Shown here: one piece after another, positions 13,213 through 58,759 of the stretch | Layout of the letters: every line of letters begins with the position of its first letter | Position numbering within the stretch: the first letter of the stretch is position 1 | NCBI RefSeq assembly: GCF_030253575.1 | Contig: NC_080569.1 | Span: forward strand, 3,221,001 to 3,285,000 | Direction: 5' to 3' | Source of the DNA: Rhododendron vialii | Taxonomy: Eukaryota; Streptophyta; Magnoliopsida; Ericales; Ericaceae | DNA length: 64,000 bases | Notes under the pieces: model-generated | Seen by the model: the letters and a program-made list of their open reading frames with translations, nothing else | What the model was told of the DNA's origin: nothing | The model's database searches: none | Program-made: the position numbers and the translations under genes

Positions 13213-14130
13213 GCACCCCATGCTTCTCATTCAACTCACACCTTCACCTAGCAACTTCTCTCTCTAAAAAAATTGTGTTCTTTCTTTAGTTCTTACTTTG
13301 TTCTTGAGTAGTTCTTGAGTTCTTCAAGAAACTCATCCTAAGCCGCCACTAGACCGCCACTCGACCACCCTCTCGATCCAAAAGTAGTAGTAGTAATAGT
13401 CAAGTAGAAGTTTCGAGAGAAACCTTTCTCTTTCGAAGCTACCGGGAGCATACCGTAGGAAGTTACTCCGCCCGACCACCAACGTACTTTCCGTAGCCGA
13501 CTAACCTTCCGTAGCCGACTACCGCCAAGAAGTAAGGTAGAACCCCTTGACCCTAACTCTACGTATAGAACCGTATGATAGAAATTAGGTTATCTTTCCT
13601 TACGTACTTATCGTTTGATTAGAAGTATTCGTATTTTGATATTTAAGATAGTTATGAGTATGCGTATATGGGTTGCTTGTATTACTTGTGGTATGTGATA
13701 AAGCATAAGTGATTTCACTCCAAAGACGTCCGTACATGTGGCGTTGTGCTTTGAATAAAGCATAAGTGATACACTCCAAAGGCGTCCGTACATGTGGCGT
13801 TATGCTATAAGTAGTAATTGAGCGTGATTAGTAATATAAAATTGGATGATCTTGTTAAAGATGATTCTTGCTTACGTTTGTCCTACCGCGGAGTCTTTGT
13901 ATGTAAACGAGACACAAAGAACCGAGAAAGTAGAAACATGACACCTAGGGTGTGGTTAATGAAAGGAAATATTTTTCGAGGAGAAAATATTTTGAAACTA
14001 CATAATGACCGATTTTGAGTGGCATTATGTGAGTTATGTGTGTGCGTGTATAAAAGAAATATTTGAAAAGAGTGAAAAGTTTTGGAAATCCGCAATGTGG
14101 CCGGACTTGCCCATTGTGTGAGGTGTGTGT

Positions 14131-14990
14131 GTGTTCCAATGGGAATCCGGAAAAAGCGGAACCATTGTGAGGTTGTGTGTGTTCCAATGGAGATAGCGGA
14201 ACCATTGTGAGGTTGTGTGTGTTCCAATGGGAATCCGGGAAAAGCGGAACCATTGTGAGGTTGTGTGTGTTCCAATGGGAATCCGGAAAAAGCGGAACCA
14301 TTGTGAGGTTGTGTGCGTTCCCATGGGAACCCGAACCGACGGAACCATGGTGAGGTATGGCTTGGTTATCCGCGGAGAGGAGCCAATGCAATTGTGTGCC
14401 AATGGGAACCCGGCGTGGCGGAACCATTGTGAGGATACTCGGGAGACCGGCGCGGCAGAACCGAGGTTGGGTGTGTTAAAAATAAATTTTGGTTTGAAAG
14501 GAAATGTTTTGGAAACCGCAATGTGGCCAGACGTGGTAGCCCATTGTGTGGAATGTGTTTTGTGTGTATTCCAATGGGATCCGGGAAAAATGGAACCATT
14601 GTGAGGTTGGGTGTGTAGCTTGGTTATCCACGATACGGAGCCAATGCAAATATTTTTGTGTGCCAATGGGAACCCGGCACGGCGAAACCATTGTGAGGAT
14701 ACTTGAGAACCCGGCGCGGCGGAACCAAGGTTGGGTGTGTGTAGCTTGGTTATCCGCGGTACGGAGCCAATGCAAATATTTTTGTGTGCCAATGGGAACC
14801 CGGCGCGGCGGAACCATTGTGAGGATACTTGGGAACCCGGCGCGGCGGAACCAAGGTTGGGTGTGTAGCTTGGTTATCCGCGGTACGGAGCCAATGCAAA
14901 CGATTTTAAAAAGATTGGGTGTGTAGCTTGGTTATCCGCGGTACGGAGCCAATGCAAATGATTTTAAAAGATTGGGTGTGTAAACAAATG
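14131..14990. repeat. Two-level tandem repeat array inside the solo LTR
   Basis: Four to five units of about 48 bp (GTTCCAATGGGAATCCGG then GCGGAACCATTGTGAGG) run from 14131 to about 14365. A longer unit of about 120 bp (TAGCTTGGTTATCCGCGG, then GCCAATGCAAA, then CGGCGCGGCGGAACC) repeats from about 14610 to 14960, with a truncated last copy. Open frames in all phases over this array are by-products of the repeat. Confidence 0.85.
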
Positions 14991-17100: not shown

Positions 17101-17177
17101 GGGGCGAAGTGTTAACTTCCCGATTTTACTCAGGCGCACATCGGCATCCGTCGGAGGAAAAGAAGCAGCGGGAAGAG

Positions 17178-20100
17178 ATGTTGGGGTTTTCGTACGGAGA
17201 GGTGTTCCTACTCCTTGGAGCCACTGCTGCAGTCATCGGTACCCCCACCCCCCCTCTCTCTCTCTCTACACACATATACGTATGTATGTATGTATGCAAA
17301 GGCGGTGGTCAAATGTTGCAGTCAAATTCTTTGTGATTATTTTACTAAACGAACGGCATTATTAGGTCCCAAGGATCTCCCAATAATAGCGAGAACCGTC
17401 GGGAGATTAGCAGGTCGTGCCATCGGATACGTCCAACTGGCTCGTGGCCAATTCGATAATATCATGCAGCAAAATCAAGCTCGTCAGGTCTTTCTCTATC
17501 CTCCCACCCCCCAACATATAGGTAAATTAGGTACAAATAGCTGATTAGTTGTATCACAGTATTTAGCTTATTGTGTTATTCTGCAAAAAAGAATGTCATG
17601 TTATTCAAGCGGTAGTGATTTTCACACACTCTTTTTTGTCTTCTTGTGATGTGAATTTACATCGTTGTCCTTCTAATTCTGAAAGAGTATACAAAAAAAA
17701 GGTTAAATTTGTAAATTAACATCACATGAGGACAAAAAGGGAGAACGGTTATGGAAAAAGAGGGTGTCAAAATCAATTACCTTGTTGAATCTACTTTTTG
17801 AGTTGTGTCTTACGGGTATCAATCCTTGTTTGGTGGTTGTTTTCGGAATAAGATTAGCAATAGTTACTTCTGGATCTTATCTATTTTCCAGTAGAAATGA
17901 TTTTTAAGAATGTGGAAACATTTGTCTAATATTTTTTTAACGGTTATGCTATTGGCAGCCCACTGGGTGGTCAATAAGGGAAGAAGAATACAAAAAAAAA
18001 TACAGTTTCCGATGCACTTTTAACGCTTTCAAGGCACAACACATTTTTTTGGCCATTTTTCTACCATATTGACAATGCATTGGGCTATTATTAGCATTTT
18101 CCTTTTCTAGAAGACATGTTATTTTCCAAGTAATCCCTGAAAAAGATGTTTGAACCATCAGCCAACCAAGTTTTAGTCAAAGTTCTATGCAGAATTAGTT
18201 CTCAAGAACTACAAACAGAGAGTTAAAGTTCTGTGAAAACTCTATGATATTGTGTTGTGTAGTTCACACACGTGTTTCCTTTGACTGGAATAAACAGCAT
18301 TGCATTGGTAGTGTGTTCTGACGTTCTCGTGGCATGTAACTCCCAGGTGCATAAAGAACTTCAAGATACAATGTCTCAACTAGAGGCCATACGTCATGAA
18401 ATTCGAACCATCTCTTTTATGAATCCTGGTCCATTGACTCGGAGGCTTGTGGACAATATTGACCAAACATCTGTTTCTAGTGGTATCGTATTTTTCTGAG
18501 ACCTTTCAATTCTGAAACGAATAGATTTGATTTTTCATGAGTGAATTTGACGCATTTGGTGGTTCTCGTTCTGTTCCAGATAATGCTGAACTACCAAAAC
18601 CTGATGCAACCCAACAACCTGACATTGAGAACAGACCAACTATTTCAGATGCCAAGGTTTTGCTAAGCATTATAACAAATTATCGATATGATATTGGTTT
18701 AACCCGAGTGACTTATATCAATATTGATGAAGTATTTTCTTTCCCTTCATTTTCCCCAGAATTTTATGTCAGCAACCTCAGGATTTTCTGATATGCACAG
18801 TCAAGCAACAGCTTATGCTAAATTGGCTGAATCGGCGGCTCTTAACTCGGGGTTGAAGAAAAGTAGTGAAGCTATTGACGAGCTAACTGATGAATCTGGT
18901 CTTATGGTTCTGCCGGTATCCGCTGAAAGCACTGGATTGCTGCCAGATTGCAAGGGTAATAATCTTCTCTTCGGTACAACACCACGAGTTTGCATCTTAG
19001 AATGTTGCTTCTTACATGTGAAGTTTTGTTACCTCTTAGTCCTAGTGTAAAGTAGTTTCTGTTTTGGTCATATCAGGAATTCTTAGTGACTAGAATGGCA
19101 AATTTCTGAATCTGTTATTTGGGATGTGTGTATCCATCAAATTGCCTTTGTTTCAGTTGAAGCTATATAGCCTATATGTACTTGCAATCTGTTTGTTTCT
19201 ATAAGTGATGCTTTTATGGAAATTGCTTTCCTAAGTGAGGAGGTTCTAGAAGAGATGAAATTGGGCTCGTCACGTTTCACATGTTTTAAGGTGTCGGGAA
19301 ATTTTGAAGCCTCTTTTGAATTTTGATGGAATAGCAACATTTCGATGTCTCCTTTGAGCTGTAATTGTGATCTCGAAAGGAAGTTCCAAAATTTGGTGCA
19401 ATGGTTAGGAATGTACTGGACCTTCAATAGATGAAGCAATGCTGTATAGTCCTACTGCTCGTGCGAGAGTTTTGACAAGTTGAGGAGTTGTAGAATGAGT
19501 TGAATACGCCTCTTAGAATTTTGACTCAAGACAAGTGAAAACTATTCTTTGACCCCATTTTCATCTAACCATGTTTTTTGGAACTTGTGTTATTTGCACA
19601 AGTGACTACCCTCAGACTCGAACCTAGTTCTTATGCTTGACAACTTCAGCTGATGCTTCCACAAAAGTACCGTTTTACCCTCTCAAGTAGAGGGGGACTG
19701 ATTTATCTTTCAAAAAGTTTAACACTTGCGTCAAATTGGTTAGTAATGAAACTTGCATTAGCCAACCGTAGGTCCTCCTTTACTACCTTTGCCTCTATGT
19801 TAAGTGTACTCCTTTAAATGTTTTGAGTACATGTGCGGCTTTATACTTAGATAAGGGTATAAGATCCGTGTCCGACATGATTAGTTGGGCTTTCACTTTG
19901 CAAGCATATTTTGGAACTCAAATTTAACGTAAACAATCAATAGAACTCCTATATTATGCATGCAATGGCATTTATAAAGACCATTTATCCTGGGAAAGTT
20001 AAAGGAACAGGCTATGGAGAATTCTTATATTATGCATGCAATGTCCTTGAGAATTAATGCAGATGAATCTGACACATAGACACATACCTACACCTGCACT

Positions 20101-22391: not shown

Positions 22392-22835
22392 TCAAAACCT
22401 CACCACCTTATCGGCCTTGACCACCGGATTATCCCTAGCAATGGTGTCCTTCCCCACAGCCTTAAAATCGAACTTGCACTCGTGCTCCTCCGGGTACCTG
22501 TGGGCTCCACAGAATGTGGCCCCACACCGGCACAGGAACCCCACCAGTCCCACCTTCTTGTTGCAGCTCGAGCACCTTTTCGGCGCTGCCTTACCCATTG
22601 ATTCAAACCCAGTTGACGGCGACAGCAAAGATGCAACATGAGCTTTAAACACCCTGAAATCATCGTCATCAAGTTTCGCCGTTGAGGCTTTTTTGTCGGA
22701 CACCGCTTGCTCTTCCTTGCCGCGGAGGTCTCGGTAGCACTTGGAACACAAGTTCATGGTCGCCGACGTGCTGAAAAACCCGCATCCGTTCTTGCATAGC
22801 TTAGGCTCGGATTCTTGGATGCCTTCAGAACCCAT
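22392..22835 (-). CDS. A20/AN1 zinc-finger stress-associated protein (SAP)
   Basis: Intronless 147-residue protein with the standard plant SAP layout. The N-terminal A20 finger has Cys14, Cys18, Cys30 and Cys33 (CKNGCGFF then LCSKCYRD). After a short acidic/Lys linker comes a C-terminal AN1 finger starting RCSSCNKKVGL, with CRCGATFCGAHRYPEEHEC supplying the remaining Cys/His ligands. It ends ARDNPVVKADKVVRF, a typical SAP tail. SAPs act in abiotic stress responses and bind ubiquitin or act as E3-like factors through the A20 domain. The lack of introns is normal for the family. A CT-rich leader and a TATA box lie upstream. Family assignment is near certain; which SAP orthologue it is cannot be told. 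Confidence 0.97.
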   Translation of the reverse strand: MGSEGIQESEPKLCKNGCGFFSTSATMNLCSKCYRDLRGKEEQAVSDKKASTAKLDDDDFRVFKAHVASLLSPSTGFESMGKAAPKRCSSCNKKVGLVGFLCRCGATFCGAHRYPEEHECKFDFKAVGKDTIARDNPVVKADKVVRF

Positions 22836-22858
22836 CTCTCTTCTTTTCTTCTACTTCT

Positions 22859-35971: not shown

Positions 35972-36776
35972 TCGTGCTGGGGGAGTGAACTTTTCGAAAG
36001 GCGCGTGGGAGAGAAGTTTCCGTGAAACGGGGCAACCGCAGCTGCGGAGTGATTACTCTGTGTCTGTCGGTCACATGACAGGCAAGTTTGGGTCGGCTGT
36101 GACGGGTTCAGGGGACAGGAAAAGGAAAGCATCCACCAAACGTACTACAGCATTAGTGGGCGTGGGGCCCGAGATTGGACGGCGGAGATGAGTTTTGAGA
36201 GGGTCGTAGGAGAGAATTTAGGAGCGTTGGATCATGGGGGGAGGAATGAGCGCATATGGAGTGGGGTCCAACATGTTGTCGTTGATGTGGGTGGCAATGC
36301 CTATCTGGGTGTTTGAGTCTGAAGTGGGACCTTTTTTCAAAAAAATTATATATATTTTAAAAAATGAAATGGTACCCAAGTCAATATTGATCGGGTTATA
36401 CTCATTCCGTCACAATTTGTGTCCATTCCGTGGGTTGATTTTTCACGTGGTCCTTATGATGCAAATTATATTTTGTATCACGATCTCATTAGATGATTCG
36501 AAAGATTCATTTAATTGGCCTCAACGAGTTTGGCACATGTAAAAGATTAGATTGATCGGAGGCCGGCATTCACCTGAATAAGCCATATTTGTCACGCAAA
36601 AAATGAATGGTCAGACTCTCTGATCACTTAAATTTTTCTTCAAATAAATATACAATTCAAGTCTATAGGACTCTCTTCATTTGGAGTTTTGAAAAACCAA
36701 TTTTGGGAACATATCAATCAATGTGCAGCCAACCTACGCACATCTTAATTAATTCTGAGTCACCAATCTCTCGTTG

Positions 36777-37206
36777 GAGAATAAATTCTATCCACCGCCG
36801 GTGTAAAATTTCATTTTTCCACCACCGCTTATTTTGGGCCTCACCGAGTGTCTATTGTTGTGATCTGAACCGTTCATATTTTAAGACCTATAATACAGTA
36901 TTGCCATGCAAAAAGTCAGCTTGATCGAATATCAATAGATATATCAAAATTAGAATTTTGGTTTATAAAATGGACGATCTAATTTCTGTCAATAATGATA
37001 AAGATAAACTATTCATTTTACAAAGCAAAATTTAATTTTTGATACTCCTATCGATGTTTGATCAAATTTATTTTTTGCATGGATACACTACTATGTGGGG
37101 TCTACAAGATGAACGGTTCAGATCAACAATAAACACACGGTAGAACTGAAAAAGGTGGTGGTGGAAAAGTGGAATTTACCACTGCCGGTGGAAAGAATTC
37201 AATCTT
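36777..37206. repeat. Mutator-type MITE with 9-bp target duplication
   Basis: 430 bp. The terminal GAGAATAAATTCTATCCACCG is mirrored by CGGTGGAAAGAATTCAATCTT; inner arms include GTGATCTGAACCGTTCAT mirrored by GAACGGTTCAGATC. CTCTCGTTG flanks both ends exactly (36768-36776 and 37207-37215). Confidence 0.75.
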
Positions 37207-37215
37207 CTCTCGTTG

Positions 37216-40200
37216 TCCTGCATGCAACGAAATTGCATTAAATCGAGATAAAATCCTAGATGAATTGACCCACAAGTGTTGATAGAACCTATATATGGCT
37301 TATATTGCCATCGTTCGGTCCCTTGTTAGTTGACGATGGAGTTGGCTTTTCCAGGAATTAGTTAGGGTTCGCTCATAAGAAGTTTGAACACCTGAGTTAT
37401 AAGAAAAAATAAGCCACCACCTTAATTTACTTAAAATTCTTTAATTATGGCATTTATTATTATTATATTTTTCTTGATCCGATTAACTTAGGAGTTAGGG
37501 CAGGTTGAAACTAAGGTTTTGACCCTAGCTGGATCGTTTTATGAATTTAATTATTAGGCCTAATCATGCTTTCGGTCGGTTAAACAGAATAAAGCATCTC
37601 TAATGATGATGCATTATAATTAATTTGGTGATATACTTTACTGGTATATAACAAAAATACACTTTTCTAATTTCTACATATAGGCGACGACCTGCTCTAA
37701 CGACATGTGCTACTAAAATTGTAATATTATTATTATTTCAATAATGGACTTTCAAATGCTACCAGATTATTTCACTGCAAAAATAGTAGACGATATACAA
37801 GTATATATATAATACTACTAAAAATGTAGTACTAGGCTACTAGCTACGCTTACTTTGATTTGGTTCGCCACCAAACTACGGTGAGATCATGATGCTCCGT
37901 CTTTCTTTTTGGAAAGGACGTCGTGACCTCAACTTTTATTTTCAAAGTTATACTATACATACAATCGACACTTTCTTACATTTCACGACAATGTGTATGG
38001 ATCGACAAGGAGTAGAGTGAGGTTTCGAAAAGAGAGGAACGAAATTAGGAGAGCGCGCATAATATTGGACCAATAATTTCTTCACGCAGTTCACATCTGT
38101 CATGATAATACAGTTTTTTTTCAGTTTAAGTCGGTGTACTCGATTCCTTCAGTGTCTGGTTTAGGGTTAGCTCCGCTAGCTCAACCATTGTGAGGAAGTT
38201 TCCCCCTGACTTGGTGTCAAACAGACCTGGCAGGAAAACTAATCAGTGGCCACCCAATTCACGCATCGGTAGGTGGCACCAGTCTATGAGTTTGCCGAGT
38301 AGATTATTCAACGTTCCTGGAATACTACGTGACGTTGTCAATGTGGTACTCCCAACATTTTATTTGGCAATAAAGCATGCGGTGAGTCGGTGAAGATATT
38401 ATTACACTTTCTTAGAGGGTGGTTGGGAAACAATGAGTGATCCGTATTGTGTGATGATGATATTTTATTTACAGAAAATACCTCGTGAAAAATTGACCAT
38501 GCCACGTAGTATTCCGGGTCATTGGCCGAGTTTGCCAAACAACACATTTTGGCAGGATGGGTAGTTTTAAATTGGCCATGCCTATCCAGATGTGTACGTA
38601 GACCCAACATTTAGGTTAGGTGTGAGTGTGACATCCCAAAACTTACCCACATATACTAACATCACACCAAAACACACAACTCATCCCCCATGGGAAAGGC
38701 CAAAAGAGTAGCAATGTTACATCAAAGAACAACTCATACCTGTCGGAGGGAGCCCTTAAACATTGGGAGCGAGTCCTACCACTGGACAAAAGGAGTGGGT
38801 CCAATTTCAGCAATGAACGGCTCGGATTTTAATCCGAGCACTGGACGGTCCAGATCAATAGGAGTTTGAATCAAATCCGAGTCGTCCGTGCTAAAATGGA
38901 CGGTTGGATCTTGTAGTGAGACTGTGCACTACAGGATTGCCAAATCCGAGTTCCACTTGGATTAGGCAGTAGGCACCCTTTTCTTGCATTTAAATTTTCC
39001 AAGGACCACACAGAAAAGGTGTCCACTGTCCACCTCTTCTTGTTTTGTCGAAATTGAATGAAACCTTATCTTCAAGTTGTAGCTATGTGTATTTGCATTA
39101 GAGGAAAATTCGATTACTCATCATATACAGAAAATTTACACCATAATGTTCATGTAGTACTCTGACTATTGTAGTGTGAGATTTCCTACGATGGCTATGG
39201 AATGTACCCATCCTTATTCAGGCCTTCTTTAGAGCCCGCAATGTTTAAAGGAAACAAATCATACCAGAGTCTCAGGTCGGGTGAGAATGATTTAAAGCAA
39301 CCGACTTCCGTACTCTGTATGCGTTATCAACCTTATAGATTTTCGTGTGACGAATGAAAATGTCACCCAACCTGAGTATAAAAATGTTGATGGGGAGAAG
39401 TAACTTTTTTGTCATTCATAAAGGCATCAAGAGAAGTGCCTCTAAGACTTCCGGACCCCCCATTTCAAGTTATTTTCAACTCATGATCTTAAACTCGGGC
39501 CGGCCGGACAACCATAAACAATATTGTCATGTGGTGATCAAAAAGATCGATTTTTTACCTAATACTACAGTATTTACTTTGTGGCAAAACACAATAAGTT
39601 TTTTTTTGTTTTTGTTTTTCTACTTACCTAAAACACAATAAGTTGGCTACTGCTACTTGGCAGCATTGTCTTTCGACATTAATTGTAGAAAGCCTAATAA
39701 GGGTGAGAGAATGGCAGCATCTTTATTTGGATGGGTGCACGAGTGCGATGATTTTAGCTGTTGTGGACCCTGAAGCCACACGTGAAATGAGGTCTGGCAC
39801 TAGGCCACTTGGTACTTTTGGGTTGCACTAGGGACCTGGACCAGGACGGTTGTAAACTGTATGCAGGCCCTACCTCGCATCCCTTCTTGTTTCCCTGCCC
39901 TCTAAAAACTACACGGACCCGAGGATGCTGCCACACGGTCCACGAGCGCATCCGAACCGTCTATCTCGGCAATTAATAGTCTTCTTTGGAAGAATTCATT
40001 TTTTAATCAAGACCATTAAAAACGCTTTTGGACAGTCTGGGTGTGCCCTGGACCTGCTCGGCAGGGTGCTTAGCAGGGATCGCTTGGCAGCGTCCACGGA
40101 TTCAAAACTACACATTGCTGGCGTGGGACCATTCTATGTCTATGCATCATCTATGCATACATAGATATGTTTATCTACATGCACATACATTAACATAATA

Positions 40201-40639
40201 AATAAATAGTAAAGATATAGCATAATAAGCCAATTTCATGAAAAATATATTGTATATCTTCAAAATTTCAAATTATGCAACTGCTGCTAACTGATCAATC
40301 ACAAGTCCACTGATACGTAATCCGTTTTGAACCAACGGAACAAGAGAAACATCGGAAGGAGAAGATGAATCTCACTGACGGATAATCTCACGCGGCAAGA
40401 GAGCACCCAATCCACCAGACTAACTCTTCTTATCAAGTTGTACTGTTGGTTGCTTTGTAGTATGTGAAAAGATAATTTGTTCTACCTTTCTCTCGAATTG
40501 TAATGCATCCCGAATATTTCTTCCTATAAACTGTAAATTTATAGCAGAGCACAAAATCAAATAGATACATCTTAGATCGCAAAGCTACAAGCCTATTGTG
40601 TCAGTTTCCTCATGGCCAAGTGAAAAGTAATTCCAAATC
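37216..40639. other. Intergenic, no gene seen
   Basis: No conserved coding sequence. Several stretches (38.8-38.95, 39.75-40.1 kb) have the GC-richer ACGGTCCAGATC/CCGAACCGTC style of degraded MITEs. At 38634 the phrase TGACATCCCAAAACTTACCC resembles an LTR start, but no matching end was found. The last few hundred bases form the RPC8 3' flank. Confidence 0.4.
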
Positions 40640-41100
40640 TCGGAAGCCGTCACTCTTACGGCTTGTTTTAGGGAACTCGAACACACCAAAAAATTTGAAC
40701 GAACAGGCTACCACCATGAAATGGGGCCTAAACCTTTAGGGTCGTCTTCACCAGTAACATCAAGCGAACCCTGCAATATATATAGATAGTATAGCGGTTA
40801 CCTCACTGTTAACAGAAACTGCAATTTTCTAAAAGCAGCAATGCTTCTGATAGAGTTTTGGAACATGAGAGTAGAGCTATTACTCAGAAGCCGTCACTCT
40901 TACAGCTTGTTTTAGGGAACTCGAACATTACCAAAAAATCCGAACGAACAGGCTACCACCATGAAATGGGGCCTAAACCATCAGCATCAAGTGAACCCTG
41001 AAAAATATACAGATATCGTGGTAACCTCATTATTAATAGAAACTGCAATTTCCAAAAGCAGCAATGCTTCTGATAGAGTTTTGGAAAACAAGAGCAGTCT
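40640..41100. repeat. Tandem duplication carrying the RPC8 last exon
   Basis: Two direct copies of about 215-240 bp, roughly 40642-40877 and 40886-41100, share CCGTCACTCTTAC, TTTTAGGGAACTCGAACA, GAACGAACAGGCTACCACC, CAGCAATGCTTCTGATAGAG and more. Each contains a full acceptor site and last exon of RPC8. Copy 1 has 18 extra exon bases relative to copy 2. Confidence 0.9.
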
Positions 41101-44100
41101 TATCATTTTCAATGTATAAGGCGCCAGTAAAATGTTTACTGCTGTAAGTTAGAGGAGAGCTTTGGATCCGTTTCCATATATTTCTAGTAACAGGCTTAGC
41201 TCCGAATCAACACCCTCTAAAACTCTATTTTAGAGGATGAAAAAAAGGCTTTTTTTCTTCAAAGCGTGGTTATTGAGTGTTACACTATCCGTGTCAACTC
41301 CAACCCCATTACTCCATTTCTTCAAAATCCTTCTCTATTTTCTATCTAAAACTCCAACAATTCTCTCATTTCCTCCAAAATCTGGTTCACTACATTTTTA
41401 TCAAAACATATTAAAAAAGCGTTCGCCTATGAATTAGCTCCAACAGAATATTGATCTCTTTTTAAAGGTATTATGAATATCATCCTAATAGTACTAACTT
41501 ATGAAAAATGAACATAGAAATTAAAAGTTTTATCCATTTAATGAATAAAGTTCAATTCTCCATATTTGCAGGATGATCCTCAATTTTTCTTTCCATCCTC
41601 TGTACTTGGAGGACCAACACCCATCCCCTACCATGGAGAAAAGTTTTTTAGGATGGGTAGGAGGAGAATGATCCATACTACAGCAAAATGGAGAAATGGA
41701 GGATGGGTTGGAGATGCCCTAACACACAAAATTCAGTCATCAAGTATCCCCATATATTTCAATAAGAAAATACCAATAAAAATAGGTTTATCAACCATGT
41801 ACAGAGGTTGTGCACAGTTGCAACTTAAAGCTCTAATGTTGTTCTTTCTTTTTCTTTCTTTTTGGGGGGTAAATACTAATGTTGTTCTTTGCGATGGAGA
41901 AACAAGTCTTTTTGGTCTCTCTCACCTCTCAATCCTTAACATCACACGTTCAAAAGAAGGTATCGGATGCCACAGCGAGAGGGGGCAGAAAAATCAGGGA
42001 AGTTAAGTTAAAAGGTGGACTTACTGTAATCACCATAGGAGCAAATGGCTTGGATTGTTTTTCTTGCTCAACTGGTAACCGATTTGGTGGTTTTGCTTTC
42101 TCAACTGAAGAAGGATTTGGTTGTTTTCCTTGCTCAACTGATGATGGACTTGCTGGTTTTTCTTCCTCAACTGGTATTGAAGGATATTTTATACTTTGAA
42201 CTTGGAACCGAATCTGCAGTTGAACACAGGAACTAAAGATTCAGTTAATTAATAAAGAGTCATTATCTTAAAGAACTGAAAAAAAATAAATTAAGAACTG
42301 AAAAGCTTCAAAGAACAATACCAACCTCATCGGTTCCATCTATAGGAAAACTCTGTCCTTCATACTCCCATACCCAGCTGATTTTTTTTTGGAGAGCAAG
42401 ACACAAAATCATGAACATTAATTGAGGTCATGAATGTGCTAAACGAATTATTGATAAAAGACTTGATCGGGAGCATACTCTACAGTAAGTATTGGAAATG
42501 AATAATCAGTTCAAACACAACTCTTACCTATTTACCGGGTCAGCCTTAAGATGGGATGGATTTGGCATTAGATGGACAGGCACGTAGATATCCTCAAAAA
42601 ATCCAAGCGATACTGACAATAACAAATTCAAGTCCAATGTAAGGGCACTATTCAAACTTAATTTAACATTCTTCCAAATTAGAACTACCAGATGGACAAG
42701 ATTTCATATGCGAATTAGGGCCGCAAGATAGTGGGATCAACAGTAACATAAGTGATACCCGATTTGGAAAATGGGAAGGAAGAAAAAAATAAAAGATAAC
42801 GGGGTAAAGCTCACCACCCGAGATAGGACGCCAGGGGATACATATAATCACCACCCGAGGTGTCTAACAAGGGATACAGGGCTAAACAAAATCACCACCT
42901 ATCGGATCCACTGAAGGATAGAGTAAACAAGAAGAACTAATCTTCTCACAAGCCAAAGGCTAATTCAATTCAACTCAACTCTCTACTCATTTCATTCATG
43001 ATCAAGACATTATATTGGACACTCTTGGAACATCCTTCCAAGTTCCAAGCATAGGAAAAATAAATGTGCATATCTGTTTACTCTTGTACTGTTACTGCAA
43101 TCAATTTGAGGGTACAATAAATATCGTGAAGGGTTTCGTGGTCAAAGATGGAATCTTCCTGACAGCAGGTGAAGGTAGGAAGTTCGTCTAATTGCCTCAT
43201 TCAAAAGCCTTCATGCCAAAAAAAATAATAGCAAACTGCGACAAAAAGGGAAGGAAAATATGCATCGTGCAGCAACTTGGCAAGTCGAACAATGACATGC
43301 TTAGACAAAATTTGTTGCAAGGACTTTAGCAGAAAGAAAAGACACTAATTCGAGGAAAACAAAGAGTAACATATCATAAAGCAAATGTAACGTGATTAAA
43401 ATGGACAAGAAGTATACGAGTCATACAACGTAAACCGTTAGCATCAGATTCTTTGAGTTTTGCAGCTATAACCTCTCCCACAAACGGACGAAACATTATC
43501 AGCCGGAAAAGCACCTGCCAAGAACACCATTACGTCCCTTGTTAAGTAAACATGCATGAAGGGGTGTTGTGACACCCAAAGGAAAACCTCATTAACTGAA
43601 TTTTACACAGATTTTGTGAAAGCACAAGGACATTCATATGGAGACATCACCAACACCATACTTGATGAGAAGAAGGAAACAATGACATCACCATAACCAT
43701 ACTTGATGAGAAGTAAAAAGACATTTACCATAATGAAAGTAGAATAATTCCCGATGTTCAAGGAAATGTCATATTATGATAATGCTACACGACTATAGTG
43801 TTTACTGGAGCAGCCCTCAATCTCATTGAAAGTAAAAGGGAAAGTCTACAATACACATCCCTTAAAAGTGCGTACCATATGCACCTATTGTATGGTTCAT
43901 TCATAACATTTTAGTGTGTTTCGTAGCTTTTGTTCTAGAACTCATAACTTTTCAACAATACAATTCGTAACATTTTCATTATGATTCTTAACATTTGGTG
44001 CATTCGTAACTTTTATACTAAAATCGTAACTTTTTAGCAATACCATTCATAACATTTTCTCTATAAATCATAACATTTTGGGGGTGTATATGATACACAC

Positions 44101-46320
44101 CCAAATAAGGAGGGTGTATTGTAGCATTTCCAGTACCAATTCGCATATTGTTGAAGGGACTCGATCTTTCCTTAGGGAAAGCAATGAATCAATTTTGTTC
44201 TTCTGTTTTTGGCTCGTCACGAACCAAAAACATCAATTATCGGATAATTGAAATTAAATTCACTAAAATAATTGAATTTAAAGCATCATATTTCTTCTTT
44301 ATACATAAAGTTTACAAATAGACAACTTTCTTGCAATACATTTCAATTATTGTAGTGAATTTAAACTCCATACTGAAGAAATGCTAAAACTCAATCTTCT
44401 TAAGAATCTATGGAGAGGTTCTTTGAAGACCATCGTGACACATTTGTATTCGTGGGGCCGAGGGCCCTTACTATCGCCCTGCTGGTGCTTTTCTTTTTTG
44501 AACTTACCTTTATGGACATTGTTAACTTCTTTTCGACCAGATCCTCCTTTACCAAACCCGTTTGCACTGGTACCCATGTTGATGAAGCTCTGCACGGCCT
44601 TGGCTCATTCGGTTATGGCCTCAGCTAGTTTATAGTGCTGGTCAATAGACTCAATACGGAGATAAGCTCATCCGTGTCTTTCCGCTCGTTGAGAACGAAA
44701 TCCTTGAACACTTGGCAAGCAACAACAATCTATTGGTAGTTTGGTACTAGGAGCAGCCCACAATCTCATAGAAAGTATCCCAGTAGAAGGAACTCAGACT
44801 TGGCCTTCCCTAGGTAAAAGGAGTAGGCCAACACCGGTCGTTTATCAAACCACAAGAGGCCGAGCTCCCCCAGACTTGATTGGAACAACTTGCACATTAA
44901 GGCTTCGTCAGTTGAGTAGAGAGACGTCATCTGGCAAAAGTGGACCAGGTGATCACTTAGTAGAAGGATCCTTCTAAAATGGGTGCGCTCCCTAGACGGG
45001 AGCTCGAATCAGCGCTCCCATCTTGGGAGCGAGCTCGCTCCCCTCAAGATGGGAGCTCGCTCCTAACTAAAATGGGAGCTTATCGGGCCGATAAGGCAGT
45101 TATTTTCTTACTTTTAAGGGAATTATGCTATTGTGGAAATAAGAATATGAAAATCACATTAGTCAAGAAGCTTTGCAAATTGAGAATATATAACTTCCTA
45201 TAATTACACTTTAAGATCAGATTTCAGTAAGTATCACTTTTTCTTTAATAGTTAAGTATTTAAAGATATTTTATATACATATTTTTATATAATCTATATA
45301 CGCTCCTTGGGCGCTCCCCACCTTAGGAGATTCTAGGTGCCTCCACTAGCCCGCACCCGCTCCCACTTCTGCTCCTGCTACTAAGGGTGAGCATATGCGT
45401 CAGTCTTAGGTTCAAACCTGTTAAACTTTGAAACGTTAAAATTCCTTGGAGGCCCTCCGTAATGGCGACGAGACCAGTTGTTCAAGAAATTAGGTCCACC
45501 TTAGACTAGTCTAAGAAATAGCAGAAATAACAACTACAAAATAGTTTTCCTAGATCTCACCACACGACAACCTCACTGCTAACTTACCGTATGTACACAT
45601 TTGTTCCCCACTAACAAGGACCTTCTCATTTCCTGTGCAAATGTATCAATTACTCATTTTCAATCTGCAACAAATATTAACGTAGTTCGAACTTCTGAAA
45701 TCCTCTTACAATCATCTCCACACAAACAAAACGCGACTCGCTGAAGTGCTATTACAGGCAATAGTATGGTGTTCCGCACAAGGAATTTCAGCTAACGAGG
45801 CTGACATGGAGCTCTCTCTGAGTTCAACCAGAATCAATGGAGTTTACACATGGCACTAAACCACAAGAAATAAGTAATCTAACGGCCTCCCATAAGTACA
45901 ACTACAAGGAAATATCTAGAATACAGTAATTCAAAAAGGCATGCTAAAGAAAGAATTGAACGGAAAAACATTACAATGAGTTTCACAATACAGGCCATAC
46001 GCACCGTATAGGTCGAAGCACCGTCTCCGGGAAAAATAAAGCCCTTGCCAATTTCCTGAATATCGTAGACTGAGACGCAAAGCCCCAAGTTCGCAATAAC
46101 CTTCGTTTGAACAGCAAAAAAATCAAAAACACGTCAAAAAAACACAAGGATGAGAGAAGAATGGATTTCAAAGGTAACGAATAGAAAACTGTGGTGAGAA
46201 GAATTGGACCTTGTCTAAGAAGAGAGCTTCAAGTTCTCCCCTGATTGCGACGTGGAGAGGAAGGTCGAGGAGGTGAGGCGGCAAACGCAGCGTGTGCTCG
46301 ATTAAACTTAAACAGAACAT
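40708..46320 (-). CDS. RPC8: DNA-directed RNA polymerase III subunit RPC8 (Rpc25/Rpb7 family), alternative last exons
   Basis: Stalk subunit of RNA polymerase III, orthologous to yeast Rpc25, needed for initiation on tRNA and 5S genes. Exons: 46320-46210, 46100-46005, 43514-43427, 42612-42528, 42377-42326, 42213-42025, then a last exon at either 40997-40953 or 40770-40708. With the proximal copy the protein is 221 residues, with the distal copy 227. Residues 1-80 are the Rpb7 N-terminal domain (LIEHTLRLPPHLLDLPL, then FIFPGDGASTYT). The S1/OB domain follows (FRPFVGEVIAAKLKESDANG, LSLGFFEDIYVP, SWVWEYEG). Both last exons end in the family signature GLGPISWW then TAG. Between residues 160 and 193 lies an 11-residue repeat not expected in the family. 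Intron 2 (2.5 kb) contains a MITE and transposon-like DNA. Exon boundaries were checked by phase. Confidence 0.92.
42067..42165 (-). repeat. 33-bp coding minisatellite in RPC8 exon 6
   Basis: Three 33-bp units (42165-42133, 42132-42100, 42099-42067) plus a partial fourth encode EEKPASPSSVE, QGKQPNPSSVE, KAKPPNRLPVE and QEKQSKP. Each unit begins, on the plus strand, with CTCAACTG. The unit length keeps the frame. Confidence 0.88.
43839..44131. repeat. MITE in RPC8 intron 2
   Basis: The ends GGAAAGTCTACAATACAC and GTGTATTGTAGCATTTCC are inverted. The inside has five or more copies of a CATAACATTTT/CGTAACTTTT word. Confidence 0.65.
44347..45000. other. Transposon-like DNA in RPC8 intron 2
   Basis: Moderately GC-rich stretch with short minus-strand frames containing a basic, Gly/Lys-rich segment (GKGGSGRKEVNNVHKGKF) reminiscent of a gag-type region. 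No diagnostic domain is visible, so this is a weak call. It is followed at 44.98-45.37 kb by a cluster of GGGAGC/GAGCTC words. Confidence 0.3.
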
Positions 46321-46756
46321 TTGAGCTTTGATTAGTGAGAAGATGGTTTAGGAATGGAAACTGTCGTCGGAGTCCACGGAGGTGCTGGTGAAGCAGGCGG
46401 AGGCGGAGCCGAAATCGGGGAGAGAGAGAGAGAGGGGGGGGAAGGTTTATGCTTTTTTCCTTTCTTGTTATTAATAAATGTTTAGTATGTCTTTAGCTAG
46501 TATTATTAATTATTAAAAATATGTCTTGAGCCGTGATTTTCCCAAACAATGTTCCTAAACAACTTTTTAAAATTCCCCAAGTGGCCCAAGATGTCTTTCT
46601 TGGAGAATTTTAATATTGAGAATAATTTCCTTGATAATTAATTTTATGAAAATTACTTGGAGGTCCTTGGTCCCACTAAAATTATCCAAATTGTTGAAGC
46701 CAAAATCAATTAAAGAACTTATTTGAGGGTCGTTAACATTATTATCATCAGAAATC

Positions 46757-47146
46757 CTAGCCGTACCGACCAATTTCAAACCGAAACCGTACCGACGGCC
46801 GCTTCGGGCTGTCTCCGGCCACCGGACGGCCGATCCGAGCCGTTCAAAAATTCTAAAAAAAAAAACCGAGTGGCCTTACGCGGGAATAAACGGCATCCGA
46901 TGTATGTAGAGTGGTTAGATCGAGTACCCTATTTTTCGTATATACTCGTGTATATATGTATACGCGAAAACTAGGGTACTCGATCTAACCACCCTACACA
47001 TATCGGATGCCGTTTATTCTCGCGTAAGGCCCCTCGGTTTTTTTTTTTAGAATTTTTGAACGGCTCGGATCGGCCGTCCGGTGGCCGGAGACAGCCCGGA
47101 GAGACCGTCGGTACGATTTCGGTTTGAAATTGGTCGGTACGGCTAG
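46757..47146. mobile_element. 390-bp foldback (palindromic) element between RPC8 and GAUT
   Basis: The two arms of about 185 bp are near-exact inverted copies: CTAGCCGTACCGACCAATTTC and GAAATTGGTCGGTACGGCTAG at the ends, CTCCGGCCACCGGACGGCCG inside, and GATCGAGTACCCTA near the AT-rich loop (about 46940-46970). It is non-coding; open frames seen on both strands follow from the symmetry. The target duplication is unclear because the ends are themselves the palindrome CTAG. Confidence 0.85.
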
Positions 47147-48378
47147 CACTTCTCTATTATCATAGGGATACAATTGAAAACGAAGCATAGAAAATACGGA
47201 TAATAAATTTTGAGTTGACTACACCGTGTTTGCTAGATATATATTTTTGCATCATTTTCTTTTTTGATTTGAAAAAAAAAATAAAGATAAAAACGTGTTT
47301 CATATTTGGATTATTTACATAATCAGTTTCTAATTTTATTTTAAAAAAAATCTGCTTTTGTTTTACCCGAAAACTAATCTGGTTGATGCATTTGAAACTA
47401 GACAACGATAAAAAGGAAATTGCAATTTTAAAAAATTCAGCATACATTATTGCGAATAAACTTGCTTTCTTTCTCGCAAATCGGTAGTAGAGATCATTAC
47501 ATCATCTATAAGGTATAAAGTACAAATCACGGGACACTATATCTATTATGAGAGTCCACGAGATAATCAAGCCTAACAACTAAACTAACAGGATAAATAA
47601 GCCCATCAAAAGGACCACAATCACTATAAACCCAACCCAATTACAAGCCCCGTTAAGAGGAGAAATAACCTCAACAAATACACCCACACATAGGTGGGAA
47701 GACTCGTACTCCTAACCTCCTAATGAGATGCAAGAGTCATGGCCAACTGAGTTAGCATCAGTTGGTTAAACTTGCTTTTTGTAGACTCCGTATTTTGCAT
47801 AAATGTGACGAGAAAAGCATTAAGGTTTTTTCCTCTTAAAAATACCTCAATTCTTCAAATATTCTACCAACCAGAATAGACTAATTTGTAGCAAACCAAT
47901 TTATTTTGCAGCTTTTATTGTAACACTAACATTTAATCCATAATTCAAAGCTGCAACAAACACACTTCATAGCTTCTCTAAAATCTTGAATCTGGAGCAG
48001 AATCAACAATGTAAAATATAAGAAAAAGCTGTCGTAAACAGTCCCCATATCATTAATTTGAAAATCAAGAATCCCTTCTTAATTCCTACTATTGATTTCT
48101 AGAATGGATTATGTACACACAAGCACCAGGATTGCGACTAACCCACATAAGGACTTGCCTTATTCCACCACCCCATTATTCCTAACCACTAACTCAGCTC
48201 CTACATGATTTTGGCCGAAAAAATTCCCTGTCAAAATTTACGAAACGGAAAAATATGGGAAGAATGAGAGAAAAATCAAGTAAAAATGCGCAGTGTCCCC
48301 TCTCACACGAAACGTCGAATCTGTGCGGTGAATTTGAATCAAATTTCAGGGCTCCAATTGCAATGGTTCAGGATTCAA
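47147..48378. other. Intergenic between the RPC8 promoter side and the GAUT 3' end
   Basis: AT-rich with no gene. 47530-47765 may be a SINE on the minus strand: read in reverse it has CTAACTCAGTTGGCC (box A-like), then GGTTAGGAGTACGAGTC (weak box B). The right-hand part holds the GAUT 3' UTR. Confidence 0.4.
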
Positions 48379-51300
48379 TCATCTCTGAATGTTGCATTGT
48401 TGGAGGTACGGATGTCCATAGTTAACATGCCTCCTCCAGTATTCCTTGTACTTATCAGGCCCGGTATCCAACCACGGCTTCATGATTCCGTTGAAGTGTA
48501 TGACTGCAGCCTGCTCGATGTCTACCCTCCTGACGCCAGAGTCGTGACCTAGGCCAAGGATGTGCCATGTCCTGTCCAAGGCCATGGTATGGTTGTAGAA
48601 GGTGACCCAACCTAAGGGCAGGCTACCCGCCTTCCACAATGGCCTTTCATCTCCCTGCATGATTCCCAATTATAAGAATAAGCATAGCAGTTGTATTCAC
48701 AGAAAAACCAAACGTGTGCATAGGCCTAACAATACCACCAGAAAAGAGAGGTACATAAGCAATTAATGGTAAACCACTCTCATGAACCCTTCCAATGCCT
48801 GATTGATGGGCTAGAACAAACACAGAAAACAAAAATGCACATCAGCTAGACTCGAAACCATTGCAACACATAAACGAGATAGCATCCGATAAGGTTTCCA
48901 ATCTCAGTAGTTATGTCACCTTGCAAGTTCCCAGCAATTGACATTGTGCTTGTGGAGCGGAGCTTACTCCCTTAGTACTAGAGGTAAATTCCAATATTGC
49001 ACGCCACCGTTTGGCCAATCATATTTTAACCGGGGAAAGGGAGGGAGTGTCATTCTTGAAATTAACCTAAGACAGGTCTTCACCCACAAACCGATGACAG
49101 TCAAATAAAACCAGATCTGGGAACACTGAAAGATAATGTCTATAACTCCAACATGATGCAATTAAAGTGATATTACTCGTATCATTGCAACATCATTCTT
49201 CTCAGAGACTAAAACGAATCACCTGACAGGTCTACAATTAAGGCACAAATAACGGAGCAAAACAATCAAGAGAGTCTTGTCCAAAAGCCTCAGAAAGTTA
49301 GCTCCATCCAACTCAAAACCAATCGGTAATGAGTGGAGAGGCCACCCAGGCTCATATACCAGTTTTGAAGGTTATAATTAACCCATGTGGGACAAGCTTT
49401 AACAGGGTCAACAAAATAAATAGCTTGAATCCATTAGAAAAAAATGAACTTGCAGAGAAAGGGTTTGAACCATACGAGTTGCAGATAGTTGTGGTAGACC
49501 CCAGTTAGATTATGTCTCCACCACTCTCGAAGATCAAACACATTCATCCCAAAAGCCCATGTGCATGCCTCGCGATCAAACCTCTTTTCAATGCTTGGGT
49601 CTGAAAAGTTGACAAACATATCCATCCGGCGAAATGAGGCTTCACCTTCCTGACAAGTCTCCACCGCTCCATTTACTTTGCCCTCCATACTGATGTTCCA
49701 AAGTCCTGTCAGATCCCTTTGCACAACCACGTCATGGTCAAGAAGCACTATCTTATTCAGCATAGGGAACACATCTGGCAGATAGAATCTAAGGTGGTTC
49801 AGTGCAGAGGTATATCTTAGGTCAGGGGAGTTTTCCTTCTGCAGTGTTGCATTGTACTTGGTGGACAACCATTCAAAAGAGTTTACACTCTGGATCTGCA
49901 TTGCAGATTTGCCCGGAGGATTTAATAAGAACCACATAGACATTGCTGGGAGGTTTAGAGAATCTGTCACTACGTGAAAGACTAGCTTCTCTGGTTCCTG
50001 CAAAGCAATAATAATTCGGTTCTACTTCAGTTCAAGATATTTCAGTTCAATGCCTCATAAACATAAACAAGACGTTTCCATATTCATACATCAATCACAC
50101 AACTGAATCATCATGCTATTAATCAATGGAGTTGGCACAAAAAAATTGGGTGCCGGACACGCTTCTTTAACAGCCTATCCTTTTCACTAACAAACTTTAC
50201 AAGCGCTGAAATTTGTTGTCATCAGACTTGCTTCAGTTGTGCGGTCCTGTTTACTATAACAGGGAAGCCATGAACAGTCTTGATCCTAAAGAATTAATCA
50301 AGTGATGAGCAAAACAATATGTATCCATAAGAATCCAATTCGTATAACTAACTACGCAAAAAAGAAAGTGAGAGCTTTATGATGAGTCGCACAACAAAAA
50401 AAAAAAACACTCCACACCTGCACAATACAAGAAAGGTGGATTAAGTGTCAAAACTAGCATGCAGATGGTCATATCCGTGCGGCAGGTGAACTGCTGGCCA
50501 AAACTGTAATAAATGACAATTGAAAAAGATAACACAATACTAATTACTTTTTGGACCAAAAATATGCTATTCAAGTGATATGGCACCAAATAAACCTCAG
50601 GCAGCTTACCTTAGAGGTGGAAATGGTAGAGTTCACAACCACAGCACAGGCCAGAACATTGTCACTGAAGACAGCAAAGTGATAGAGATCAGGATCATGC
50701 AATTTCTGCTGATTAGGGAACTGCCACTCCTCTGGCTGCAGGGCAAAGTATTCAGCAGTCAACCGCATGGACAGGCAGTGAAGGCCTTTGGGGGTTGTCC
50801 TTCCAGCAAGCTGAAGAAGAAATTGAACTTGACTCTTCTGTGCCCTAGCCTGTTCCTCCAAATTGTAAGTCATAGCACGGAGTTTAGAGACCATGGCAGG
50901 GCAGTCTGCATACACACGGCTGGCTTTTGTCAAGGTAGCCTCCATCGCTCTTATCCTATGCAAAGCCCTGAAAAGTTTTTACTGATTGTTAGATGAGATG
51001 TAGGTAATTATGTCAAAGAGTAGCCATGTGAATGCCATCCAGTTACTTGATTACACATATTTGGTGGCACCAACTAACCAGACTTGGCTGCGGAATAATT
51101 GAATTTAGCACTCAAGAGACTTTCCTTTATCTTGATTGCCTAGGTAGCCGGATCTCCAATCCCATTTCAGAGGAGCAAGAACCAGACTCGGTACACAAGA
51201 ACAGTCTAACATAAGAAAAGGATCGAAACCCAAGTTTAAAGAAAGAAAACGTGCACATCAACAAACATAAAGAAAAGCAGGTCTTATTTCACCAGTTGTG

Positions 51301-57101: not shown

Positions 57102-58759
57102 TTACATATCGTGGAAGAACTTGAAAGTTTTGACATCGTCGACGATGAACCTCACCGCACCAACGCAGCCCAACACCGCAACAACAGAGAACCAAGTAGC
57201 AATTGCGAGATTAAGGATCATCAGCGAATACCGAATCTTCGTGTCTCTGGGGGCTTTTCCGGCTTTCATGTATGCTAAAACAGGGAAGACAAAGTCCAGT
57301 GGAGTAAAACCAATAGCTCCGCAGATAGCAACAAAATCCCCGAAGAAAGGCATGGCTGCAGCGATAAGAGTTATAAGAGCCATGTAGATTGAAGTGAATA
57401 GGAGACGGATAATATGGTTCCGAAGAGGCAAACTGCTGGTTGTTTTGTTTGACAGCATTCTTTCCTCAAAGTATGCATATGTTGGCCTGCAATATATCTG
57501 ATGACAGAATGGAAATGTACCGGTTAGTTTTTCTTTGTGTTGACAGGATTCAAGAGTTAAAAGATGCATCATATTTACGCGATACCAAAGTTTATAGCCT
57601 TTGAAAAAGCTTGAAGTTTTGATTGGGAGAAAAAAGTGGTGAGGGGAAAGCTATATACCTGAAAGCATCCTGATATCTGAATAACGGCAAATAGATTAGC
57701 CATAACGGTTGTCCACTCGGGAGTAGTAAGTGAAGCCACAATGTAAGGCTGGACAGCGTTTCCAAATGCCCAGTAGCCACAAAAAGCTAATTGCCAGTAA
57801 GTCATAACAATAATGCCATAAGCTGTCGATACACCTTTGTACATGTTCTTCTTTGCAGGTTCCCTCATCGTACTCTACTAAGACATCACCCGAAAAACAG
57901 TCCACTTGATTGTCACAATTCATGTAATTTCAAGCGTTTGCATTCATAAGCTTTATAAAGTGCTATGTCAATGAACACCAAAACAATTTTGTCAAGATAT
58001 GAGATACGATGCAAATTGAGTTCTAAAAAATTGCATTTAGAGAATGCGGGAATTTACCTGTATTTCTGGAAGCATAGCATCTCCAAATGAAAAGGCTATT
58101 ATCCCAAGGGCATTGAATGCTGTAAACATCTTCAATGAGGAGCTTCCTTGCAAACTGTAGCTAACTGATTCTCTATCAATCTTCTTACCTACAACACGAT
58201 AGACATTCTTTCTCTGTGCAGTCCGAAAGACATCAAGGATGTGTTTGGATAAAATATTTGTGGAGGAATTTATGAAGGGAAATGGAAAGAAAACCAAAAC
58301 TTTAGCCTCTTCATATTCTTATCGTTTTCTATCTTTACAGATCTTTCCACAAATCCGTAATGCAAACACAACCCAAAGGAGCACACAGCGAAAACTTTAC
58401 CAAGCTTACCATTGTATATGGTGACACCAATGGCTGTACCCGCGAAGCCAATGGTACTTAGAGTGCAAAGTGCATTTACCCATCTCAAAGAATGGATGTT
58501 TGGGAGCTGAGAGAGAAAAAGTTCCAAGATCCCGAAAAGAATAATGAAATGCTGCAGTGTTAAGGTACCATCACTGTGATAGTATTTGTATACTGCCTGC
58601 AAAATTATTGAAATAAAAGTGAACACATAGAACAGCTACTGGTCCCGTTCATTGGAATCGTAATGGTTGAAGAAGTCTGGTCTCGTCAAATACACTAACC
58701 TTAAGGCCAGTTCCTGCAGCAATCTGAATGGCAATGTTATTACCCAAGGAAGCCACCTG
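57102..58759 (-). CDS. GAT1-like amino acid/GABA transporter, C-terminal part (5 exons, 5' end missing)
   Basis: Member of the amino acid/auxin permease (AAAP) family, closest by recall to plasma-membrane GABA transporter 1 (Arabidopsis GAT1, At1g08230). Exons: 58756(or 58759)-58700, 58596-58410, 58188-58058, 57874-57659, 57497-57102; 328 residues in frame to a TAA. Recognisable blocks are SLGNNIAIQIAAG, LSQLPNIHSLRWVNA, FNALGIIAFSFGDAMLPEIQ, GYWAFGNAVQPYI, AVIQISGCFQIYCRPTYAYFEE and GAIGFTPLDFVFPVLAY, ending KFFHDM, with about eight hydrophobic membrane segments. The family is normally about 450 residues, so about 120 N-terminal residues are absent. Nothing coding for them was found between 58760 and the copia LTR at 59346. 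They may lie beyond the copia insertion and the window end, or be lost. The first acceptor is a CAGCAG tandem site. Confidence 0.88.

Follow-up and report, generated by a model that had tools for sequence, protein, structure and literature searches.

That tandem duplication of exons gives rise to alternative splicing is well established, and homologous terminal exons are among the known cases (PMC9013439, PMC3228551). Terminal-exon duplications have been described in Drosophila, for pip and for the 3' variable regions of PGRP-LC and CG42235 (PMC9013439), and human capping protein beta has duplicated terminal exons as well (PMC3228551). Among plant genes, Arabidopsis FLM/MAF1 carries two mutually exclusive exons (PMC3266260). 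The RPC8 gene of Rhododendron vialii is a new example of this known phenomenon of tandem terminal-exon duplication. Like the Drosophila genes and capping protein beta, in which one of several adjacent, homologous 3'-terminal exons or exon clusters is chosen per message, it has two homologous last exons lying side by side. Unlike all of these genes, it is known from its sequence only: in the cited passages the Drosophila and human cases are presented as alternative isoforms (PMC9013439, PMC3228551), and translatome reads are given for both FLM/MAF1 exons, which are internal exons of a MADS-box gene where that of RPC8 is terminal (PMC3266260). Capping protein beta is furthermore described with several poly(A) sites (PMC3228551), whereas one shared 3' end is likelier for RPC8 here. 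General expectations about plants point both ways, one study arguing that alternative splicing contributes to the plant proteome only to a limited extent (PMC2674458) and another reporting that splice isoforms are widely translated in Arabidopsis (PMC13136898). Within the open-access literature on RPC8/RPC25/POLR3H, titles and abstract openings report no duplicated RPC8 last exons.

The RPC8 gene and its duplicated last exon

The window analysed here, meaning the whole stretch of 64,000 nucleotides, contains an intact RPC8/RPC25 (POLR3H-type) gene on the minus strand (46320-40708). It encodes a small stalk subunit of RNA polymerase III, the polymerase responsible for transfer RNAs. We take its counterparts to be human POLR3H, yeast Rpc25 and Arabidopsis NRPC7/At1g06790. 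Exon borders (Table 1) were placed manually, guided by reading frame, GT-AG splice sites and resemblance to the family; exons 1 to 6 (42025-46320) are open throughout and separated by GT-AG introns. The predicted protein carries both domains that define the family, SHS2_Rpb7-N (PF03876, 57.0 bits) and RNA_pol_Rbc25 (PF08292), each above its cut-off, the latter with either last exon. A genome-wide search found a single RPC8 locus: seven of the 11 matches fall within it, and the four located elsewhere, on C10, C1, C4 and C7, show at most 38% identity, so the genome yielded no second RPC8 gene as an outgroup.

In its whole length and its Pfam domains the protein is like RPC25/RPC8 elsewhere, and in the form that ends in the upstream copy of the last exon it shares the C-terminal GS(4)G(L/M)G..(S/A)WW of the PDB orthologues. 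It differs from them by its second last exon, which adds six residues, and by an 11-residue tandem repeat encoded by exon 6. This repeat is rich in Ser, Pro and Lys, lies in the linker ahead of the C-terminal motif, and derives from a 33-nt tandem repeat (42057-42173, minus strand; 3.5 copies, 79% matches). The linker is shorter in the PDB orthologues, by an alignment in which nine residues were missing from the S. pombe row. Intron 2 (43515-46004, minus strand) is long, at 2,490 nt, and contains seven inverted repeat pairs (for example 44247-44276 with 44342-44371, and 43839-43864 with 44106-44131), perhaps from inserted elements.

Table 1. Features of the RPC8 locus, with positions counted from the first nucleotide of the window
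Feature	Coordinates	Strand	Basis and remarks
Exon 1	46320-46210	-	Frame, GT-AG, family resemblance
Exon 2	46100-46005	-	Frame, GT-AG, family resemblance
Exon 3	43514-43427	-	Frame, GT-AG, family resemblance
Exon 4	42612-42528	-	Frame, GT-AG, family resemblance
Exon 5	42377-42326	-	Frame, GT-AG, family resemblance
Exon 6, last shared exon	42213-42025	-	Donor ACA/GTAAGT (slash marks the junction); phase 0; holds 33-nt tandem repeat
Upstream duplicated unit (end of intron 6, acceptor, exon 7 coding part, first part of 3' UTR)	41097-40883	-	Pairwise alignment; 215 nt
Upstream acceptor AG	40998-40999	-	TATATTTTTCAG/GGTT; branch-like TTAAT 35 nt upstream
Upstream copy of exon 7	40997-40953	-	GSLDADGLGPISWW-stop; canonical spacing; probable main last exon
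Downstream duplicated unit	40874-40639	-	236 nt; 8 nt separate the units
Downstream acceptor AG	40771-40772	-	TATATATTGCAG/GGTT; branch-like TTAAC 38 nt upstream; TGCAG core
Downstream copy of exon 7	40770-40708	-	GSLDVTGEDDPKGLGPISWW-stop; 18-nt in-frame insertion
TATAAA, candidate shared 3' end	40538-40543	-	Hexamer search; first searched hexamer past the upstream stop

A first-pass annotation of this DNA had reported a tandem duplication of about 230 bp that includes the acceptor. Pairwise alignment confirmed it, the two unit lengths making 230 bp a fair figure, and the coordinates and translations given for both exon copies proved exact. The duplicated block runs from the last part of intron 6, through the acceptor and the coding part of exon 7, into approximately 70 nt of 3' UTR, such that the adjacent homologous copies each include an acceptor, a reading frame and a stop. 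Because exon 6 ends at a codon boundary, both copies join it in phase 0, and both end in TAG, as had been claimed. The predicted protein is 221 residues long with the upstream copy and 227 with the downstream copy, bearing out the six-residue difference that was expected.

The two units differ at 22 of 214 ungapped columns (10.3%; Jukes-Cantor distance 0.11) and by gaps in four places (1, 3, 18 and 1 nt), the longest of which lies in the coding part and keeps the frame. By part, the mismatches amount to 14 of 100 columns in the intron, 3 of 45 in the coding sequence and 5 of 69 in the 3' UTR. Neutral rates in plants run from 2e-9 to 7e-9 per site per year, which would date the duplication to very roughly 8 to 28 million years ago, an estimate good only to an order of magnitude. 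The copies are alike beyond chance: a BLAST search of the duplicated block against the window returned two main pieces (E = 1e-34 and 3e-17), followed by 13-mers (E = 0.37), and a search of the genome (532,647,506 bases in 13 contigs) located the block once. This single location, and the lack of any further strong match in the window, led us to reject both a dispersed origin of the block and the existence of a third copy. A repeat search of the window recovered the duplication in pieces; it is absent from the list made by Tandem Repeats Finder, probably because of the gaps between the units.

Elsewhere in the window, five of the seven neighbouring open frames that were tried found a match, and those at 17116-17544 and 50571-50978 gave none. 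Minus-strand frames at 5110-5493, 22392-22850, 49434-50021, 57102-57650 and 58270-58635 belong to neighbouring plant genes; the matches were to tryptophan synthase alpha, an A20/AN1 zinc finger protein, glycosyltransferase family 8 and an amino acid transporter, the last piece falling just under the Pfam cut-off. At 13883-14931, overlapping open frames on both strands contain repeated peptide-like units (for example HNLTMVPLFPDSHWNT), as a tandem repeat array would give.

C-terminal spacing of the two copies

For comparison we used four PDB sequences of RPC8, which represent three proteins (human, S. cerevisiae and S. pombe), one yeast protein being present twice. Of these, 3ayh is presumably the S. 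pombe RPC8. The human chain is named as such in its description (PMC8837262), and 6eu0 is described as the S. cerevisiae chain (PMC10201443). In all three proteins the C-terminus follows the same pattern: (G/A)S, four residues, G(L/M)G, two residues, then (S/A)WW, with S. pombe contributing the AS in place of GS and the AWW in place of SWW. The earlier statement that the GLG-SWW end is conserved in the family is thereby supported for the PDB orthologues.

The upstream copy has exactly the spacing of the orthologues (GS-4-GLG..SWW). The downstream copy departs from this fixed spacing and requires a six-residue gap in the alignment, its insertion being placed between the conserved GS and GLG-SWW pieces. 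Within the OB fold these two halves of the motif presumably form adjacent strands, which would place the insertion in the connecting turn. Immediately before GLG, the upstream copy and the two yeast proteins have D, the human protein has P and the downstream copy has K. The PF08292 score is 63.0 bits without exon 7; adding the downstream copy raises it to 75.1, and adding the upstream copy to 86.3. In phmmer searches, the human and S. cerevisiae chains align to the end of the query that carries the upstream copy; with the downstream copy, their alignments stop at residues 170 and 177.

Both C-termini are thus family-like, but it is the upstream copy that has the canonical form, and the insertion of the downstream copy is most simply derived, a polarity that is judged from animal and fungal outgroups only. 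Among pattern matches from viral and general genome contig collections, which are not meant for plants, none of 14 and none of 40 was confirmed as a plant RPC8 orthologue. As to the spacing in RPB7 and archaeal proteins, the sole non-RPC8 alignment among the matches listed in a profile search ends before the C-terminus. The Arabidopsis protein ends in VDQEE, according to our own translation of the reverse complement of a primer given in PMC4809280, so that plants differ beyond SWW. A stop directly after SWW is present in both copies here, and therefore most simply predates the duplication.

Acceptors, 3' end and the main last exon

Using a hand-set, plant-like score, we ranked the 88 AGs between approximately 41964 and 40640. 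The downstream acceptor ranked second (10.5) and the upstream acceptor third (9.9), the first place going to an AG at 41678 within a repetitive element of intron 6. AG-free stretches of 26 or 29 nt lie ahead of the two acceptors. As neither is visibly broken, the choice between them is not decidable by sequence alone. The upstream acceptor is nearer to exon 6 and hence transcribed first. RNA structure as a selector between the copies was rejected: the fold of 40640-41120 is within the range of shuffled sequences and no stabler than they are (z = -0.74; 24 of 100 shuffles fold at least as well). A search for RNA families in 36000-48000 gave no match at the gathering score.

The intron 6 element itself (41280-41725, minus strand) is dispersed and lies upstream of the duplication. 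With 40 of 114 candidates scored, the genome shows at least 42 matches to it, and the best other copy among the matches listed is 74% identical over query positions 9-446. Its look is MITE-like; with the settings used, a search for a terminal inverted repeat gave no pairs.

Between the upstream stop (40953) and 40544 there is none of the 12 poly(A)-like hexamers for which we searched, the first beyond that being the TATAAA of Table 1. Poly(A) signals in plants are loose, which leaves room for a 3' end between the copies. Given that no searched hexamer lies there, we infer one shared 3' end, with alternative acceptors. Of the first-pass picture of two competing last exons, the duplicated exon and the two plausible acceptors stand, but the arrangement is better described as two acceptors that share one 3' end.

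The explanation we favour, with a probability of about 0.6, is that the upstream copy supplies the main C-terminus of RPC8 and that the downstream copy is a derived spare, rarely or never spliced in. A tandem duplication of approximately 225 bp at the 3' end of RPC8 has doubled the final acceptor together with the exon 7 coding sequence. Exon 6 would be spliced mainly to the upstream acceptor, giving the normal C-terminus, and transcription would continue to one 3' end past both copies, so that the downstream copy would usually be left as 3' UTR in these messages. A message using the downstream acceptor would skip the upstream copy and encode a minor isoform, longer by six residues. In Arabidopsis, a null allele of the gene is described as lethal (PMC4809280), and given also the single RPC8 locus in Rhododendron, one copy of exon 7 should stay functional. 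In the same Arabidopsis gene, a mutation at the intron-exon junction before exon 6 is described as causing intron retention and partial loss of function (PMC4809280), which indicates that acceptor use late in this gene can matter. The upstream copy, canonical and proximal, is the natural candidate for the functional one, and its length and motif are as in the animal and fungal proteins.

The slightly higher score of the downstream acceptor and its fuller TGCAG core count against this explanation. They would fit a reversal of roles, with the downstream copy as the main last exon and the upstream copy skipped as an intronic decoy, as would the position of the downstream acceptor nearer to the candidate 3' end. 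We consider such a reversal unlikely, since the unused copy would then be the one that keeps the orthologue spacing and has the better family score, and since the proximal acceptor has no evident defect. The first-pass interpretation is thus supported in part: the duplication, the phase, the acceptors and the conserved end hold. The annotation did not mention, however, that the two copies are unequal, the upstream copy being canonical and the downstream copy derived-looking.

Divergence of the downstream copy and a possible second isoform

A further point against the upstream copy as the main last exon with a rarely used spare behind it is that the downstream copy has kept its acceptor, frame, stop and all residues outside the altered stretch, despite 19 differences in 169 flanking columns. 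When the two codons flanking the insertion are left out, the coding part shows a single mismatch, a synonymous one, in 39 columns. These observations, the open frame, the insertion length divisible by three, and the placing of both acceptors within the top three of 88 AGs would suit a situation in which both acceptors are appreciably used, giving two functional RPC8 isoforms with C-termini six residues apart and two forms of the Pol III stalk. However, the difference between 1/39 and 19/169 is not significant (one-sided Fisher P = 0.078, with the codons dropped after seeing the data), and over all 45 coding columns the 3 mismatches are not significantly below expectation (hypergeometric P = 0.28). 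In simulations, a neutral copy given half the flank divergence kept the AG and all residues outside the two codons in 17% of runs, and one given the full divergence did so in 2.7%; the AG, an open frame and the same stop were kept in 64% and 42%, respectively. No test for selection on the downstream copy beyond its surroundings was significant, and the exon is too short for such selection to be demonstrable, so that its conservation leans only weakly towards selection. The longer form also departs from the spacing common to the yeast and human proteins. Taken together, two functional isoforms appear quite unlikely, and we regard as improbable the proposal that one gene would provide two forms of the Pol III stalk through alternative acceptors, the longer form, with its partly acidic six-residue insertion, possibly being a regulated variant.

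That the duplication is an assembly artefact, with two haplotypes or overlapping contig ends placed in tandem, is extremely improbable: assemblies are known to contain false tandem duplications of such a size, but ordinary heterozygosity or read error would give less divergence than the mismatches (22/214 columns) and four gaps seen between the copies. The window contains no N, and the search of the 13 contigs located the block once.

Should both copies be in use, a single plant would possess two C-termini for an essential subunit of Pol III, and the locus would be a natural test of how far the GLG-SWW end tolerates change. Even if only one copy is used, the gene represents a terminal-exon duplication caught midway, with one copy canonical and the other diverging.
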